Of a stretch of DNA of 32,642 bases, positions 3,238 to 32,605 are shown one piece after another. Position 1 is the stretch's first letter. Each line of letters starts with the position of its first letter. This stretch comes from a virus, in the IMG/VR virus record IMGVR_UViG_3300008450_010740, positions 1-32,642 of that record. The stretch is one strand, 5' to 3'. The notes under the pieces were generated by a model. It saw only the letters and a list, made by a program, of their open reading frames with translations, had not been told where the DNA came from and made no database searches. The position numbers and the translations under genes were made by a program.

Positions 3238-4569
3238 ATGCACTACATAGTAGAAACTCAAGAACAGTTAGAAAAGTTAGGAGAGAAGCTAGATTCATGC
3301 TTCATAAATCTAATCTCTAATAACGATAATCAGCATCCCCGTCTAGCAAAACCTTCTCTACTTTACATACGTCCCGTATCGGAAAACAAAGGATATATTG
3401 TAGTTCTAGATCATTCGGAAGGCTTTTCACTTAATATACTCGAAGTAGTTAAGGTACTATCGAAAGCTAGTAAGATATACTGTTTAAACAGTAAATACCA
3501 TTCATATTACTTAGATCTTTCTTTAATAGACCTCAATTATTGTTTTTTAGAAAGAGGGGAGAAACCTATGGAGAATAGGGGAGATTCACCCCTTATAAAC
3601 ATCTACTATCAACGATACACCGGTGTTTACAAAGATATAAACAGAGTTATACCGATATCGAAACTCTACGAATACTGGGAAGAGCTTTATATTAAAGTTG
3701 AGACCTGTATTAAGACTTTTCGTTTAGATCTAGAATTTTATTCTCAATACGAAAAAGTTTATAAAAAGGTAGAAGAAGCAGGACTTAAAATAGATACTCA
3801 ATGCTTTGGAGAATTTTTTACTCCGCACAGTATAACAGATTCTTACGAAGATCAGATAATATATACAAACTATAACCTGTACAATGTAACTGCGAGACCT
3901 ACAAATGCATTCAACGGTATTAACTTTCTAGCCCTAAATAAAGAAAACCACTCTAGAAAATGCTTCATACCTCAGAACCATTACTTTGTCGAGTTTGATT
4001 TTGATGCATACCACGTAAGACTTATTGCTAATTTGATTAACTTCGAATTACCAGAAGATCAATCGATTCATACATATTTTGCAAAACAGTACTTTAACAG
4101 AGATACTATCACAGAAGAAGAATATAAGGAAGCTAAGCAAATAACCTTCCAAAACATATACGGAGGCATTAAAGAAGAGTATAGAGAGATTCCTTTCTAC
4201 AAAGCTCTAAGCACCTACCTTGATGATCTTTGGAATACATACCAGTACGGGAAAGGAGTTCAATTACCGACTGGACGAACCTTACAAGTATCCGAAGACA
4301 TATACTTACTCAAACTATTTAATTACTTTATACAAAATTTAGAAACTAAAACAAACGTAGAATTACTGACAAAACTTCAAGCTATATTAGAAGGGAAGAA
4401 GAGTTTTATAAGCCTAGTAGTATACGACTCTTTCTTATTAGATTTTAACGTAGAGGACGGAAAAGAACTCCTGCTAGAGATTGTTAGCCTCTTGCGAGAA
4501 AGTAAATATCCGGTAAAAGCAAAGTACGGTAAGGATTACGATTCTTTAATGAAAACCAACTATTTATGA
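3238..4569 (+). CDS. DNA polymerase family A-like protein (short)
   Basis: The C-terminal half has the order of motifs of a Pol I-type palm. Residues 220-233 resemble the Rx(S)xxPNLQN region. Motif A is VEFDFDAYHVR with Asp254 as the first metal ligand. Motif B is AKQITFQNIYG with Lys300 and Tyr308. Motif C is VVYDSF with Asp397. Motif C normally reads HDE, so here His is Tyr and Glu is Ser. At 443 residues it is much shorter than typical phage or bacterial Pol A; the first ~200 residues show no exonuclease motif I can recognise. It begins a replication block under its own predicted promoter and overlaps the next gene by ATGA. It may be the replicative polymerase, a repair polymerase, or a divergent non-replicative relative. 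Confidence 0.75.
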   Translation: MHYIVETQEQLEKLGEKLDSCFINLISNNDNQHPRLAKPSLLYIRPVSENKGYIVVLDHSEGFSLNILEVVKVLSKASKIYCLNSKYHSYYLDLSLIDLNYCFLERGEKPMENRGDSPLINIYYQRYTGVYKDINRVIPISKLYEYWEELYIKVETCIKTFRLDLEFYSQYEKVYKKVEEAGLKIDTQCFGEFFTPHSITDSYEDQIIYTNYNLYNVTARPTNAFNGINFLALNKENHSRKCFIPQNHYFVEFDFDAYHVRLIANLINFELPEDQSIHTYFAKQYFNRDTITEEEYKEAKQITFQNIYGGIKEEYREIPFYKALSTYLDDLWNTYQYGKGVQLPTGRTLQVSEDIYLLKLFNYFIQNLETKTNVELLTKLQAILEGKKSFISLVVYDSFLLDFNVEDGKELLLEIVSLLRESKYPVKAKYGKDYDSLMKTNYL

Positions 4570-24109: not shown

Positions 24110-24595
24110 TGACAGGTCTCGGTTACATATTTATTAACTCGCTCACCTAAGGGGAGCACAAATTTAAAACTATGACGTTTAAACCATTCACACTGGACGA
24201 ATTCGACCTTCTATGGAAGGATCTGTTTAAAGACTCAAACCACTTTTCTGGAATTAACCAGAAAGTTTCCCATCCCACAGACATCTACGAAACACCGACA
24301 GGTATTGCAATTGAAGTAGCAGCAGTAGGCCTCGATAAAGAGGAAATTGAAATTTTAACTGAAGGAGATATTCTCCGTATTAGGTATAAAAAACCCGACG
24401 ACGAAAAAACTGCTATTTACAGAGGAATTAAAAAAAGCTCTTTTGACCTAGCTTGGAAAATAGCTACTAAATTTGATCTTGGCAAAATTGAAGCAAAGCT
24501 AGAGAAAGGATTATTAACATTAACTATTCCTTTTGCTGAAGAGAGAGCACCTAAGAAAGTACAAATACAATAAGTTACACATAAAAGACCTGTCA
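24110..24595. repeat. Perfect 10-bp inverted repeat flanking the Hsp20 gene
   Basis: TGACAGGTCT at 24110-24119 and its exact complement AGACCTGTCA at 24586-24595 bracket the Hsp20 reading frame. It could pair the mRNA ends or mark a small insertable cassette. It may also be chance in an AT-rich genome. Confidence 0.45.
24172..24573 (+). CDS. Small heat shock protein, Hsp20/alpha-crystallin family
   Basis: 133 residues with an alpha-crystallin domain at about 35-133: TDIYETPTGIAIEVAAVGLDKEEIEI, then LRIRY, and the closing KLEKGLLTLTIPFAEE. It would hold unfolded proteins in an ATP-independent way. It is the first gene of a block that continues with GroES and GroEL, and has its own promoter upstream. 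Phage copies of Hsp20 are known in large T4-like phages. Confidence 0.85.
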   Translation: MTFKPFTLDEFDLLWKDLFKDSNHFSGINQKVSHPTDIYETPTGIAIEVAAVGLDKEEIEILTEGDILRIRYKKPDDEKTAIYRGIKKSSFDLAWKIATKFDLGKIEAKLEKGLLTLTIPFAEERAPKKVQIQ

Positions 24596-24819: not shown

Positions 24820-25116
24820 ATGAGTGTATTAAAACCGCTAAACGGATACGTTTTGCTCAAGCCTGTAGAAGAGGAAGAGATCCTTGCAGGCAACATTATT
24901 ATTCCTGATCTAGGAAAAGAAAAACCAGCTATTGGCGAAGTAATCGCGTATAGTGATTTTTATAACTTTCAAACCGGTCAATTTGTTCAAACAAAGTTCG
25001 ACGTAGGTGACAAATTGCTTATTCCTAAAGTAGGTAGTATGAGAGTTACACTAGGAGGTGATGAGTATTTCCTCTGTAAAACTGTAGAAGTAATCGGCAT
25101 TGTTTCAGAAAATTAA
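24820..25116 (+). CDS. groES: GroES-like co-chaperonin
   Basis: 98 residues of the Cpn10 fold: LKPLNGYVLLKPVEEEE at the start, a mobile-loop region ILAGNIIIPDLGKEKPAIGEVIAYS, and VGDKLLIPKVG...VEVIGIV at the end. It would cap the phage GroEL encoded 12 bp downstream. T4 gp31 is a functional analogue, but this one is a clear sequence relative of bacterial GroES. Confidence 0.88.
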   Translation: MSVLKPLNGYVLLKPVEEEEILAGNIIIPDLGKEKPAIGEVIAYSDFYNFQTGQFVQTKFDVGDKLLIPKVGSMRVTLGGDEYFLCKTVEVIGIVSEN

Positions 25117-25128
25117 AATTTATAAAAA

Positions 25129-26775
25129 ATGGTTGACAGCTTATTTGGAATTGAATTAAAAAACAAACTACTAAAAGGAATCCAGAAATTAAACAACAGT
25201 GTTTCATCAACACTAGGACCTGGTGGTAGAACAGTATTAATTGAAGATAACGTAAATGGAATTAAAGTTACTAAAGACGGCGTTACTGTTGCGAAGGCTT
25301 TCTCGCAAATCGAAGACGAGGTTGAAAATATCGGTGCTCAACTTGTTAAACAAGTATCCATCAAGTCAGCTAATGAAGCTGGAGACGGTACAACAACTTC
25401 TACTCTCCTTGCCGCAACTATTGTAGAAGAAGGTTTGAAAGCAATTAACCAGGGAGTAAGTCCTGTTGCAGTTAAAAGAGGTATAGATAAAGCAGTAAAA
25501 GAGATTGTAGCTGCACTAAAAGAAGTCTCTAAAGAACTAGATACCGAAGAGCAGATTAAACAAGTTGCAACTATCTCAGGTAATAACGATGAGATGATTG
25601 GAAACTTAATCGCAACAGCTCTTGAAAAAGTTGGACGTGATGGAGTAGTTGCTATCGAGGAGAGTAAGACCGGTGAAACTGAATTAGAGACAGTAGAAGG
25701 TATGCAATTTGATAGAGGATACAAATCTCCTTACTTTGTGACGAACAATAACACTATGCAAGCTGTTCTTGAAGATGCGTATATTTTTATGTACGACGGC
25801 CGTATTACAACAGCAGCTGAATTACTCCCTGTAATGACTAAAGCTAATGCAGAGAATAAACCTCTCTTAATTGTTGCGGAAGACATAGACGGAGAAGCTC
25901 TAGCTACCCTAATTGTGAATAAAGCAAGAGGTATTGTAAGAGGTGTTGCAGTAAAAGCACCGGAGTTCGGAGAAAGAAGAACCTTAGCACTTGAAGATCT
26001 AGCAATCATTACAGGCGGTCAAGTACTGTCTAAAGATAAAGGACATAAGCTAGATAAAATTAACGCCAATGTACTTGAACAGTATTTAGGTAAAGCTAGA
26101 ACTGTAACAGTTGAAAAAGAAAAAACAACAATTGTTGATGGAGTTGGAAGTAAAGAAGCTATTCAGCAAAGAGCTTTAGACATTAAAGATCAGATCGAAA
26201 AAGCAGCTTCCTTCTACGACAAAGAAAAACTACAAGAGAGGCTCGGAAAGCTTGTCGGAGGTGTAGCAGTAATCTCAGTTGGAGGTAATAGTGAACTTGA
26301 AATAAAAGAAAAGAAAGATAGAGTAGAGGATGCACTATTTGCTACCCGAGCAGCTCTTGATGAAGGAATCGTATCAGGCGGAGGTATTGCTCTGTATAAA
26401 GCAGTTAATAAAGCTGTTGACAATATTACTCTTGGTAGCGATTACAGTGAAGATATCGGTAAACAAATTCTACTAAGAGCATGTAAAGCTCCTTTTGTTA
26501 GAATCCTTGCTAACGCAGGTATTGAGAACTGGCATGAAATTGCAACAGAAGTAATGCAGTCCGGATTAAGTAACAGCACCTACGATGCCAAAGCTGGTAA
26601 AGTAGTCGATGCTTTCGAAGCTGGATTGCTTGATCCGACCAAGGTAGTGCGTATTGCGATCGAGAATGCTGCTTCTGTGGCTGGTACGATCCTTACAACC
26701 GAATCCGTAATCTTTAACAAGAAAGAAGAAAAGAAGGAAGGATCTGGGATGATGGATATGGGAATGGGTTTTTAA
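25129..26775 (+). CDS. groEL: GroEL chaperonin
   Basis: 548 residues, full length for GroEL. Seen: SSTLGPGGRTVLIED, VTKDGVTVAKAF, GDGTTTSTLLAATIVEEG (nucleotide-binding GDGTT), an apical domain at about 190-375, and a C-terminal GSGMMDMGMGF in place of the GGM tail. Together with the adjacent GroES it forms a complete phage chaperonin pair. It would fold phage proteins, perhaps the major capsid protein, independently of host GroEL. The gene is followed by an A-rich tract and the promoter of the large RNA. Confidence 0.95.
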   Translation: MVDSLFGIELKNKLLKGIQKLNNSVSSTLGPGGRTVLIEDNVNGIKVTKDGVTVAKAFSQIEDEVENIGAQLVKQVSIKSANEAGDGTTTSTLLAATIVEEGLKAINQGVSPVAVKRGIDKAVKEIVAALKEVSKELDTEEQIKQVATISGNNDEMIGNLIATALEKVGRDGVVAIEESKTGETELETVEGMQFDRGYKSPYFVTNNNTMQAVLEDAYIFMYDGRITTAAELLPVMTKANAENKPLLIVAEDIDGEALATLIVNKARGIVRGVAVKAPEFGERRTLALEDLAIITGGQVLSKDKGHKLDKINANVLEQYLGKARTVTVEKEKTTIVDGVGSKEAIQQRALDIKDQIEKAASFYDKEKLQERLGKLVGGVAVISVGGNSELEIKEKKDRVEDALFATRAALDEGIVSGGGIALYKAVNKAVDNITLGSDYSEDIGKQILLRACKAPFVRILANAGIENWHEIATEVMQSGLSNSTYDAKAGKVVDAFEAGLLDPTKVVRIAIENAASVAGTILTTESVIFNKKEEKKEGSGMMDMGMGF

Positions 26776-26794: not shown

Positions 26795-26825
26795 TTGTTA
26801 GTCTGAATTAAAGAAGCTATCTTTA
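26795..26825 (+). promoter_or_regulatory. Predicted promoter TTGTTA-N17-TATCTTTA
   Basis: TTGTTA (26795-26800) after an A-run, 17 nt, TATCTTTA (26818-26825). No gene follows within 1 kb, so it most likely drives the large structured RNA. Confidence 0.65.
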
Positions 26826-26831
26826 ATTTAT

Positions 26832-27746
26832 AGATAAGAAGATAACAACAGAAGTTCTTTGACATACTGTTATCCCTTCGAAGGTCTGAAATCGCTTGCG
26901 AGAGTAAGATCGGTAGTAAATAGCAGTCGGCGGCATATAGTCGTTAAATAAACCGGGAAACCGGTATAAAGTGGATTCATTTGACTGAGTGGATCTGCGG
27001 CTCCTTTCGGAAGGAGCTCGAGTATGCAATCGGGATATCTACTGACCTTTAGTACTGAGGGTAACACTGTAGGGAAAGTGGTTGGTAGACTAAGCGATGT
27101 GGGTCGTTTGGTTGAGCTCGGAAGAGCAATAAGATTAACCCGAAGGGTGCATGCAAGACATATAGTTTATCCAACCATATTATTGCGACGCCCAGAACTG
27201 AAAGGGTACTTAAAACCGAAAGGTAAGATGTAGAACAGGTGGTGCTGCTAATATCCTTTACGATTACCTACCAAGGTGTTGTAATGAAGTAGTCTAAAGT
27301 TAACCGAGATGGGGACATCTCAAGGAGTAGTTGAGTATCAACTCGGCCAAAAGCTGAGCAGGCTCAGGGCAAGCCACTACTTCTATAATCCACAAGTCAA
27401 ACTTATTTGCATTGGATTGCAAAATTACAATAACATAATAAGCTTAAGCGCTTGCCAGGTGCGGTCGAAAGATGCCTACACAGTAATGGGTTGTCCATTG
27501 CCATTAAAGGTCGCAAGCCAATAATGATTCTTATGAAAAGATCGTAGTCCCGCAAGGACTTATCTGCCCGGCAGGGTAGAACGGTTAGAGTAAGAAGAGA
27601 GTAGACCACAATAAAAGCACCTCAAGGGGTGGTTGACCTAACAACCGGCATTGTTAACATAGTGCTCAAAAGGTACTGGACAAGCAGAGAATCAATAATG
27701 CTGCAAAAGAGTTAACATAAAGACTGTAGTCTCAGGTCGTTTTTTA
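26832..27746 (+). ncRNA. Giant structured non-coding RNA candidate (GOLLD/ROOL-like class)
   Basis: About 0.9 kb without a credible gene; the short frames in it have poor codon use. It is dense in hairpins: ACCGG-GAAA-CCGGT at 26952-26965, GCTCCTT/AAGGAGC with a TCGG loop at 27000-27017, GAGATG-GGGA-CATCTC at 27306-27321, AGTTGA/TCAACT at 27329-27343, CTGAG/CTCAG at 27354-27367 and AGTCC/GGACT at 27546-27560. A closing helix pairs 26883-26889 with 27732-27738 (two G-U pairs), and a T-run at 27740-27745 follows. Length, phage setting and position next to tRNA genes match the giant ornate RNAs GOLLD and ROOL; the size is nearer to GOLLD. Assignment to a known class is not proven. Confidence 0.65.
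26853..26866 (+). promoter_or_regulatory. boxA-like antitermination element at the start of the large RNA
   Basis: AGTTCTTTGACATA lies about 20 nt after the predicted transcription start. It resembles the boxA of bacterial rRNA leaders (TGTTCTTTGA type), which recruits NusB/NusE and prevents Rho termination of untranslated RNA. The 13-mer GTTCTTTGACATA recurs at 32593-32605. Confidence 0.55.
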
Positions 27747-27764
27747 TTTATCAAGTGTATTTAT

Positions 27765-27918
27765 ACAAGTAACAATCATATGAAGATATCTAACACATAC
27801 ACAACCCCCACGACTAGCTGGCAAGAACCAGTAAGCAACAGGGCATGTATTGTAAGATAACTTTTACCAATATAAGAATTTACAAAGAGCCCTGGATATA
27901 AAAATCTGGGGCTTTTTT
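27765..27918 (+). ncRNA. Small structured RNA candidate ending in a terminator
   Basis: After the large RNA, about 150 nt hold no gene. ACAAT-c-ATATG (27772-27782, one bulged C) pairs with CATGTATTGT at 27844-27853, enclosing a CTGG/CCAG hairpin near 27819-27832. A strong terminator follows at 27888. It could be a separate small RNA or the 3' part of the large RNA's transcript. Confidence 0.4.
27888..27918 (+). terminator. Rho-independent terminator
   Basis: A 10-bp stem (AGCCCTGGAT with ATCTGGGGCT, two G-U pairs) and a 6-nt loop, followed by six T. It ends transcription from the RNA region 15 bp before the HAD gene. Confidence 0.85.
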
Positions 27919-27932
27919 ATTAACTGAAGTAT

Positions 27933-28436
27933 ATGAAAGTAATTTTTTTAGACATCGACGGAGTAGTAGCAACAGAAGAGCAATTTATGAGGAATAGAGT
28001 TAACTTTTGGAAAAAATACGAATGGGCAAAAGAACTCGGAGTACCTTATCCTTTCGATGAGAAATGCGTTAAGATCCTAAACGAAATAGTAGAAGAAACA
28101 GAAGCAGAGATTGTAGTAAGTTCTGATTGGAGGCACCATTGGGGATTAGTTCAGTTAGCTGAAATCTTTAAGCATAACGGTATTAATAAAATGCCAAGAT
28201 CTGTTACAAAGAATAAACCTGTAAGCTTTTCTTGGCTCGAAAAAAACCGAGCAAATGAAGTGCTGGATTTCATTAATCACTTTGATTTAAAACAGTTTGT
28301 TATTCTAGACGACTTAGACTTAAAAGACCTATTAGACAAGGGAGATGCAAGGGATAAGTTTGTTAGAACTAAAGATAACCAGGGTCTGAAAGAAGCTGGT
28401 ATAAAGAAGAAGATCATTGACATATTGAATAAGTAG
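27933..28436 (+). CDS. HAD-family phosphatase (HAD_SAK-like)
   Basis: 167 residues. HAD motif I FLDIDGVV at 5-12, motif II VVSSDWRHHWG with Ser and Trp-Arg typical of the HAD domain found in RNA-repair proteins (Swiss Army Knife group), and motif III/IV ILDDLDLKDLLDKGDARDKFV with the acidic pair. It might trim 3'-phosphates or other RNA ends, like the phosphatase part of T4 Pnkp, and it lies just before the tRNA cluster. Another phosphatase substrate is equally possible. Confidence 0.7.
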   Translation: MKVIFLDIDGVVATEEQFMRNRVNFWKKYEWAKELGVPYPFDEKCVKILNEIVEETEAEIVVSSDWRHHWGLVQLAEIFKHNGINKMPRSVTKNKPVSFSWLEKNRANEVLDFINHFDLKQFVILDDLDLKDLLDKGDARDKFVRTKDNQGLKEAGIKKKIIDILNK

Positions 28437-28440
28437 AAAC

Positions 28441-28513
28441 GTGGGTGTAGCTCAATTGGTAGAGTTGCGGTCTCCAAAACCGAAGGTTGTAGGTTCGAGT
28501 CCTACCATCCGCG
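28441..28513 (+). tRNA. tRNA-Trp (CCA)
   Basis: Acceptor GTGGGTG pairs with CATCCGC at 28506-28512; D-stem GCTC/GAGT; anticodon CCA at 28474-28476; T-loop GTTCGAGT. The 27-43 pair is G-A. No CCA tail is encoded. Confidence 0.9.
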
Positions 28514-28519
28514 CTAACA

Positions 28520-28591
28520 GCTCCCAAAGCATTGCAGGCGATGCACTTGACTTGTAATCAAGATAATTCGGTTCGATTCCGGATGGGAGCT
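28520..28591 (+). tRNA. tRNA-Thr (TGT)
   Basis: Acceptor GCTCCCA/TGGGAGC, D-stem GCAT/ATGC, anticodon stem CTTGA/TCAAG with TGT at 28553-28555, and a standard T-arm. No encoded CCA. Confidence 0.93.
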
Positions 28592-28596
28592 CTAAT

Positions 28597-28668
28597 AGAG
28601 TAGTTGACCAATGGTAGGTCCCTTGCTTTGGGAGCAAGTGCGTGCAGGTTCGAGCCCTGTCTACTCTA
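28597..28668 (+). tRNA. tRNA-Pro (TGG)
   Basis: Acceptor AGAGTAG/CTACTCT, D-stem GACC/GGTC, anticodon stem CTTGC/GCAAG with TGG at 28629-28631. Six bases after tRNA-Thr. Confidence 0.93.
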
Positions 28669-28674
28669 CTACAT

Positions 28675-28745
28675 TGCTCCGTGGTGTAATGGTAACACGA
28701 CAGATTTTGATTCTGCAGTTCCTGGTTCGAGCCCAGTCGGAGTAA
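28675..28745 (+). tRNA. tRNA-Gln (TTG)
   Basis: Acceptor TGCTCCG with CGGAGTA at 28738-28744, D-stem GTGT/ACAC, anticodon TTG at 28707-28709. The 27-43 position is an A-C mismatch. Confidence 0.9.
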
Positions 28746-28748
28746 CAC

Positions 28749-28820
28749 GCTCAGTTCGTCTAACGGTTAGGACGTATCCCTTTCACGGATAAGATACGGG
28801 TTCGATTCCCGTACCGAGTA
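28749..28820 (+). tRNA. tRNA-Glu (TTC)
   Basis: Acceptor GCTCAGT with ACCGAGT (one A-C mismatch), D-stem GTCT/GGAC, anticodon stem TATCC/GGATA with TTC at 28782-28784. Confidence 0.88.
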
Positions 28821-28821
28821 C

Positions 28822-28847
28822 AAAAAAAAGCCGGCATAAAGCCGGCT
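28822..28847 (-). terminator. Rho-independent terminator on the minus strand
   Basis: AGCCGGC and GCCGGCT flank a 5-nt loop; the run of A before the stem is a U-run on the minus strand. It would end the holin-like transcript and separate it from the tRNA cluster on the other strand. Confidence 0.85.
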
Positions 28848-28871
28848 CATTAAAAAGTGAGAACAGTTAGA

Positions 28872-29039
28872 TTAAGCTGCTTTCTTCTTAGAAGCAATTG
28901 ACCAAACAGCACCGACTAGAGTCATAACTCCGCCGAGTACTTCTTGAAAAAGAGCCTCGTCAAGAAGTCCTTTAGCGACGATAATACCGCCGACAAAAGT
29001 TAAAGCGTGTCTTACTAGGCCTAATACTTGTTCTTTCAT
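28872..29039 (-). CDS. Holin-like small membrane protein
   Basis: A 55-residue gene on the minus strand, the only clear one in that direction in the window. It starts MKEQVLGLVRHALTFVGGI and ends GAVWSIASKKKAA. Two hydrophobic segments with a short turn (AKGLLDEALFQEVLGG) and a basic C-terminus fit the small phage holin group of the Pam3 gp28 kind. It would make holes in the inner membrane at lysis. A minus-strand terminator lies 25 bp after its stop. No clear promoter pair was found upstream; a TATCTTTA box occurs on that strand without a matching TTG. Confidence 0.75.
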   Translation of the reverse strand: MKEQVLGLVRHALTFVGGIIVAKGLLDEALFQEVLGGVMTLVGAVWSIASKKKAA

Positions 29040-29116
29040 GTTTTAAAAATTTAAGTTAAAGATACTGAAACCGTTTGTATATTTATAAATAGTCACTATA
29101 TTTAAAATATTAACAG

Positions 29117-29190
29117 TGACCCTTAGCTCACCAGGTTAGAGCAGCAGACTCATAATCTGCGGGTAGCTGGTTCGAGTCCAGCAGGGTCAA
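29117..29190 (+). tRNA. tRNA with CAT anticodon (Met, or Ile2 after modification)
   Basis: Acceptor TGACCCT/AGGGTCA, D-stem GCTC/GAGC, anticodon CAT at 29151-29153. The paired first position argues against an initiator. Whether it is elongator Met or lysidine-modified Ile cannot be told. Confidence 0.9.
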
Positions 29191-29215
29191 CAGAAAAGAT
29201 CTTTTCAGATCTGAT

Positions 29216-29286
29216 GGGTGATTCGTCTAATGGCAGGACGCGAGACTCCGACTCTTGAAGCGCTGGTTCGATTCCAGTATCATCCA
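29216..29286 (+). tRNA. tRNA-Arg (CCG)
   Basis: Acceptor GGGTGAT with ATCATCC, D-stem GTCT/GGAC, anticodon stem CGAGA/TCTTG with CCG at 29248-29250, T-arm GCTGG/CCAGT. Confidence 0.82.
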
Positions 29287-29288
29287 CA

Positions 29289-29445
29289 ATAGTATGCTTT
29301 CGATATAGAGTTGTGTTATAGTTCAATTCTATTGTTTAACTTTGAAAAAAGGTTAGACTCTCCTATCCCAACGTCAGCGTCATTTCGGAGGTGCTGGCTT
29401 GAAAAAGAGTCGGAGTCAATATTAAGAGTGTACTATACCTTTTTA
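29289..29445 (+). ncRNA. Structured RNA candidate, closing helix plus U-run
   Basis: About 157 nt between tRNA-Arg and the next gene. Closing helix ATAGTATGC (29289-29297) with GTGTACTAT (29428-29436). Inside: ATAGAGTTG/CAATTCTAT (29305-29332), GTTTAAC/GTTAGAC (29334-29358), GTCAGC/GCTGGC (29373-29398). A T-run follows the closing helix at 29440-29444. I do not recognise the class. Confidence 0.55.
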
Positions 29446-29465
29446 TAAACCAAAAATTAAAGATT

Positions 29466-29768
29466 ATGTATCTGTTACAAACACTTCCTGGTTTTTCTGA
29501 TGAAGTAGTAGTATCATCACTACCACACCCAATCTCAATGTTTCTTTTAGGTATAATGATTGTTACGGTTATATACGTAGTTATAGATCATAGAAAGATG
29601 AGAGATGAAGTTAGAGCATTTAGAGAAGATATAAGAGATATAACAGAAACTCTAGGAAGTGTATCAAAAAGTACAGATCAAAAAATTCAAGAACTCTCTA
29701 AGAAAGTTGATTCAAGAGTAGATAAAGCAATCCTTGCTATTAAAAAAGCAGGAGATCAAAATAGATAA
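29466..29768 (+). CDS. Small membrane protein with coiled-coil tail
   Basis: 100 residues. One membrane segment at about 25-42 (ISMFLLGIMIVTVIYVVI), then a charged coiled coil to the end (DIRDITETLGSVSKSTDQKIQELSKKVD). The plan is like some phage lysis accessory or membrane-anchored proteins. It is enclosed by two structured RNAs. Function unknown. Confidence 0.6.
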   Translation: MYLLQTLPGFSDEVVVSSLPHPISMFLLGIMIVTVIYVVIDHRKMRDEVRAFREDIRDITETLGSVSKSTDQKIQELSKKVDSRVDKAILAIKKAGDQNR

Positions 29769-29787
29769 GAATATAACGAAACGATTT

Positions 29788-29922
29788 GAAGAGTTGTTAT
29801 AACACTGACACGCACGGCAACCTGGAATTGGTGCACCATGAACAGGCAATGCGAACAAAGAAGACGAGATACCTCACAGTGCGTAGGTAAGATTCAAAGC
29901 TCGTTAGCAACTCTTCCTTTTT
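29788..29922 (+). ncRNA. Structured RNA candidate with nested helices and U-run
   Basis: Closing helix GAAGAGTTG (29788-29796) with the exact complement CAACTCTTC (29908-29916). Inside, CGCA/TGCG with CCTG/CAGG (29811-29853), and ACGAG/CTCGT (29864-29904) enclosing TACCT/AGGTA (29870-29889). CTTTTTT follows the closing helix. No start codon with a sensible frame. Class unknown. Confidence 0.6.
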
Positions 29923-29994
29923 GGTCTCATAGTTCAACGGATAGAACAACTGCCTTCTAAGCAGTGGATCCAAGTTCGATTCTTGGTGAGACTA
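29923..29994 (+). tRNA. tRNA-Arg (TCT)
   Basis: Acceptor GGTCTCA with TGAGACT, D-stem GTTC/GAAC, anticodon stem ACTGC/GCAGT with TCT at 29956-29958. It begins right after the U-run of the RNA candidate. Confidence 0.92.
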
Positions 29995-30024
29995 CTGATT
30001 GGTAAAACGTAAAAATTAAAGACT

Positions 30025-32591: not shown

Positions 32592-32605
32592 TGTTCTTTG
32601 ACATA
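32592..32605 (+). promoter_or_regulatory. boxA-like element, second copy
   Basis: TGTTCTTTGACATA follows tRNA-Leu by 7 bp and shares 13 bases exactly with the leader of the large RNA. It precedes the start of the next gene by 16 bp. Confidence 0.45.

Follow-up and report, generated by a model that had tools for sequence, protein, structure and literature searches.

A GOLLD RNA with a boxA-like leader element in a probable Bacteroidota phage

The stretch of DNA analyzed here, referred to below as the window, is a viral record 32,642 bases long; a virus contig of 180,934 bases carries the same RNA at 100% identity. Two contigs from separate samples (L075 and L305) share this length and contain a GOLLD of the present type, and probably represent the whole genome of the window's phage. 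The features of the locus are collected in Table 1. Between a GroEL gene and a gene for a protein with a HAD_SAK_2 domain lies a stretch of about 0.9 kb (26832-27746) that a first-pass annotation, made from the sequence alone, had described as a gene-free giant RNA rich in tetraloop hairpins, with a U-run and with tRNAs nearby. All of this holds: the only open reading frames inside are overlapping ones of 65-71 amino acids in what is a conserved RNA fold, the tetraloop hairpins are present, the U-run follows the terminal hairpin, and the window has nine tRNAs, the first at 28441. We considered a functional link between GroEL and the RNA and rejected it, as none of the other loci searched showed GroEL close to GOLLD.

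Table 1. Features of the GOLLD locus and its surroundings, in window coordinates
Feature	Position	Strand	Remarks
Hsp20 gene	24172-24573		Upstream of GroEL; Pfam, PHROGs
GroES gene	24820-25116		Upstream of GroEL; Pfam, PHROGs
GroEL gene	25129-26775	+	Upstream; Pfam, PHROGs
Bacteroidota-type promoter	26795-26825	+	TTG (26795-26797), 20 nt, TATCTTTA (26818-26825); consensus TAnnTTTG
boxA-like element GTTCTTTGA	26854-26862	+	RNA leader, between promoter and folded body
Optional 5′ subdomain	26866-26927	+	Closing helix 26866-26873/26920-26927; small tetraloop hairpins within
GOLLD 5′ domain	26929-27304	+	Helices covary across 61 relatives, z about -21; signature ACAGGTGGTGCTG ... CTACCAAG at 27235-27275
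GOLLD 3′ domain	27306-27738	+	RF02032 at 27323-27738; covariation z about -30
A/U-rich unstructured linker	27385-27448	+	Mostly unpaired in consensus; 57-82 nt in 61/61 relatives
Hairpin, loop CGCAA (27551-27555)	27547-27559	+	Likely counterpart of L21a (bridge B8)
Terminal hairpin and U-run, likely transcription end	27722-27749	+	From sequence; TCTCA and T-run kept in many relatives
HAD_SAK_2 domain protein gene	27933-28436	+	Downstream; Pfam 91.8 bits
tRNA island (Trp, Thr, Pro, Gln, Glu, Met, Arg, Arg)	28441-29995	+	

A scan of the window with the covariance models of all 4,227 Rfam families gave one strong match, to GOLLD (RF02032; 260.5 bits against a cut-off of 150), which runs through the model from end to end (positions 1-416). 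ROOL, tested in the same scan, matched neither the window nor the stretch at E values up to 5. The first-pass annotation had placed the RNA close to GOLLD and ROOL and called for this search; the kinship with GOLLD thus stands and that with ROOL falls away. The RNA shares with known GOLLDs the 3′ domain recognized by the model, its phage origin and its tRNA neighbors. It resembles ROOL in being a giant phage RNA adjoining tRNAs, of a kind that forms cages, but is unrelated to it in sequence and fold. The Rfam model describes the conserved 3′ domain of GOLLD only, and the 5′ domain lies outside it. Sub-threshold Rfam matches downstream, to His and Thr leaders, were discarded as terminator look-alikes. 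A strong hairpin resembling a terminator (about 27888-27920) closes the non-coding stretch from GOLLD to the HAD gene (27750-27930); this stretch is possibly an additional small RNA or leader.

Blastn matched part of the 5′ half to the records of two huge phages (634 and 642 kb), in which the GOLLD 3′ domain is present as well. An earlier search pattern for the 5′ half, ATAGTCNTTAAATAAAC, was abandoned on account of its many chance matches. A signature derived from the alignment of relatives (CAGGTGGTGCTG, then 12-26 nt, then CTACCAAG) occurs in at least 119 virus contigs, and GOLLD was recovered at 242-334 bits in every scanned relative with enough sequence. Outside viruses, none of 12 stretches of bacterial genomes with the same 5′ signature was a GOLLD, and 149 Bacillota genomes gave no GOLLD match in a scan in which the controls gave no signal either.

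The covariation that the first-pass annotation had proposed to look for is present in both domains. In an alignment of 61 non-redundant full-length relatives (<92% identical; these are not independent samples), RNAalifold scored the 5′ domain at -158 (vs. -38 ± 6 for shuffled columns) and the 3′ domain at -164 (vs. -32 ± 4). The closing helix of the optional 5′ subdomain was better than all 500 partner swaps among the 46 relatives compared. A 7-bp helix that had been said to join the ends of the RNA (26883-26889/27732-27738) can be drawn, but scored no better than when 3′ ends were swapped between relatives (13.6 vs. 13.2 ± 0.4), and we do not retain it. The 5′ domain, as delimited here, provides an alignment ready for widening the Rfam GOLLD model.

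Region 26832-27746 thus holds a complete GOLLD RNA. The earlier suggestion of a divergent member or a new class does not survive the full-length RF02032 match far above cut-off: because the same 5′ and 3′ domains occur together in more than 100 virus contigs, this RNA belongs to the known family and is neither an outlier nor a class of its own. The absence of the 5′ domain from the Rfam model is what could still speak for a new class of giant RNA, or for a ROOL RNA; the same 5′ domain accompanies the GOLLD 3′ domain in every tested relative with enough sequence, and with GOLLD matched over its full length and ROOL unmatched among 4,227 families we consider the chance of either negligible. Equally remote is the idea that the stretch codes for protein in an overlooked frame. 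The 65-71 amino acid reading frames do exist, but there is no long frame, the length differences among relatives are not multiples of three and base-pair covariation is strong over the whole stretch.

In the solved structure of the env-38 GOLLD, a 14-mer, the 5′ domain forms the cap and the 3′ domain the ring of a cage, a disordered linker lies inside, and the L21a loops of two chains pair (bridge B8) through a dinucleotide subject to a GC/CG switch (PMC12286853). The window's RNA has the same total length, a structured 5′ domain of about 400 nt ahead of the 3′ domain, an A/U-rich internal linker and the same switch: the loop at 27551-27555 reads CGCAA in most of the 61 relatives and is of the UCGA type in about a dozen, and its hairpin is likely to correspond to L21a. 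The linker and the loop switch support cage assembly of the window's copy, short of proof. The window's copy differs from known GOLLDs in that its linker contains no tRNA.

The first-pass annotation had also credited the RNA with its own promoter. No excess of sigma-70 promoter matches over chance was seen at the GOLLD 5′ end, so that this form of the claim fails, whereas a Bacteroidota-type -7 element supports the same start: transcription is predicted to begin near 26831, as had been noted before. The motif TAnnTTTG, which we take to be the -7 element of Bacteroidota promoters, is conserved in the relatives at the place where the window has TATCTTTA, itself one base off the consensus. Since the relatives share a promoter of this type, a Bacteroidota host is the most likely one for the phage.

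Downstream of the promoter and ahead of the folded RNA, the leader contains the 9-mer GTTCTTTGA, which we compare with boxA. In E. coli, boxA is GCTCTTTAACA. The Legionella boxA is GTTCTTTAAAA (PMC7862264). BoxA binds NusB and S10 and converts RNA polymerase to the antitermination complex of rRNA synthesis (PMC4807359, PMC10250234); it is necessary and sufficient for that complex and raises the output of long RNAs (PMC7862264, PMC10250234, PMC4807359). It is also known ahead of further long untranslated transcripts; in CRISPR arrays, for example, it increases the RNA about tenfold (PMC7862264).

The motif is tied closely to the leader. The pattern G[CT]TCTTT[AG]A occurs in 53 of the 61 relatives, in the leader only and nowhere else across the 990 aligned nt. 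Exact GTTCTTTGA is present in 50 of 60 leaders, while none of 1,000 permutations of its letters reached more than 3, and it was counted 51 times in 7,930 nt of leader vs. 42 times in 1.3 Mb outside leaders. Among GOLLDs picked by the 3′ domain alone, 27 candidates had enough sequence upstream, and 19 of them have GTTCTTTGA or a close variant such as GTTCTTTAA at the same place; these carriers comprise nearly all candidates with the 5′ signature and six without the exact signature, and three of the eight candidates lacking the motif are not GOLLD. The predicted accessibility of GTTCTTTGA was no better than that of neighboring sequence. Over the GOLLD set, a hairpin like that of rRNA leaders is significant immediately ahead of boxA (z -6.7; -4.9 in 16S leaders); it is weak in the window, and we do not claim it there.

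The same 9-mer, letter for letter, lies between a TAnnTTTG-type promoter and the 16S gene in 8 of 11 Bacteroidota rRNA leaders, and is absent in exact form from the other three; both leaders from Flavobacteriia were among those lacking it. The rRNA-leader element was recognized through its sequence and place only, and the comparison was with leaders of Bacteroidota at large. As in rRNA leaders and CRISPR arrays, the order is promoter, GTTCTTTGA and a long untranslated RNA; what differs is the setting of the putative boxA, which is here a phage RNA of a cage-forming family and, besides it, the tRNA arrays and tmRNAs of phages. In the same phages, sequences of the GTTCTTTGACATATTG type are found 15-21 nt ahead of the first tRNA of arrays: the motif precedes 12 of 246 tRNA starts (0.03 expected), the remainder being mostly internal tRNAs. 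Similarly, about 10 of 14 phage tmRNAs near GOLLD have a TAnnTTTG promoter and a boxA 5-21 nt before the RNA, and in the 181-kb relative the tmRNA of the window's phage, 33 kb away, has GTTCTTTAC in front. Since boxA stands ahead of tRNA arrays and of most tmRNAs in the same phages, GOLLD would belong to a set of boxA-marked stable RNAs. The motif is not needed for GOLLD everywhere, because the GOLLDs of Acinetobacter phages, located within tRNA arrays, have the 5′ signature but lack it. We found no paper on GOLLD RNA and boxA in a search that most subscription journals lay outside, the two words co-occurring only in unrelated plant papers. In the literature searched, a boxA leader has not been described for GOLLD, and its sharing with phage tRNA arrays and tmRNAs appears to be a new point.

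We propose that this is the GOLLD of a likely Bacteroidota phage, probably made by way of the host's boxA-dependent, rRNA-type antitermination and folding into a cage. Host RNA polymerase would initiate near 26831, and boxA in the nascent leader would recruit host NusB and S10, turning the polymerase into an rRNA-type antitermination complex. Such a complex could then escape Rho-dependent termination over some 0.9 kb of untranslated RNA rich in hairpins, and may also assist the folding of the GOLLD RNA. The 5′ and 3′ domains would fold immediately downstream of boxA, and the folded copies would build the GOLLD cage, enclosing the linker. In the 181-kb relative we detected no gene for NusB or for a multi-subunit RNA polymerase, and host factors would therefore be used. 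If correct, the presence of boxA on GOLLD, tRNA arrays and tmRNA bears on how phages make large amounts of long, folded, untranslated RNA.

Two other roles for GTTCTTTGA have to be weighed against antitermination. The element could be some other signal shared by stable-RNA genes of Bacteroidota and their phages, such as a DNA element downstream of promoters or an RNA processing site. It does stand ahead of GOLLD as well as of rRNA, tRNA arrays and tmRNA, RNAs that for the most part undergo processing, and only 5-21 nt from tRNA and tmRNA ends. As part of a promoter, however, it would be too loosely placed, at 11 to 122 nt from the -7 element, and as a shared cut site it would be too far from the mature 16S end (124-223 nt), while its sequence fits boxA as known from both E. 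coli and Legionella. We therefore regard this reading as unlikely, if not to be dismissed. Less probable still is that the GOLLD boxA serves mainly as a decoy, with the 14-mer cage displaying many copies that titrate NusB and S10 and so weaken host rRNA synthesis. A gap of 3 nt separates the element from the first RNA helix, and both increased GOLLD expression during lysis and binding of ribosomes have been reported; but retention or exposure of boxA on the mature RNA finds no support, and boxA also stands before tRNAs and tmRNA, where a decoy would make no sense. A combination of the two, in which the boxA-marked set (GOLLD, tRNA arrays and tmRNA) runs on the host rRNA antitermination machinery and a cage with up to 14 boxA copies also titrates NusB and S10, turning host rRNA synthesis towards the phage, strikes us as similarly far-fetched.

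The neighbors of GOLLD give a hint at its role. A tRNA lies within about 4.4 kb of GOLLD in 19 of 22 relatives with enough flank. Phage tmRNAs are found near GOLLD, in many cases convergent with it at a distance of a few hundred bases, in loci L176, L186, L207, L172, L021, L065, L136, L233, L026, L064, L126, L181, L184, L138, L277, L292, L295, L297 and L303. A phage SmpB gene lies downstream of GOLLD in L233 and six other loci, about 60 nt past the GOLLD end (Pfam 159 bits). With tRNA, tmRNA and SmpB as recurrent neighbors, the context of GOLLD points to translation and ribosome rescue, which fits the reported recovery of ribosomes by pull-down; GOLLD may thus take part in the phage's takeover of translation. 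This contextual link narrows the search for the role of GOLLD.

Other RNAs were seen at GOLLD loci. A Pistol self-cleaving ribozyme (69.4 bits; L297:11396-11471, minus strand; also L281:837-912 and L303:8127-8202, both minus strand) is found on the GOLLD strand, some 360 nt upstream of the 3′ domain and hence at the 5′ end of the RNA, in a GOLLD clade without boxA, where it could define the RNA's 5′ terminus. In L026, a group I intron match (3940-4517, minus strand) shares sequence with the 3′ portion of the tmRNA match, which suggests an intron within or adjoining the tmRNA gene. A freshwater-1 RNA match barely over the cut-off (L158:9263-9325, minus strand) lies in a phage tRNA array adjoining GOLLD. 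The GOLLDs in the tRNA arrays of Acinetobacter phages vB_AciJM_313 and AM24 (L004:4460-5260 and L265:2400-3180) are unannotated. Finally, a second GTTCTTTGA occurs in the window at 32593-32601, right after a tRNA-Leu and right before a ribosome-binding site and start codon, and the motif may thus serve an mRNA leader too.
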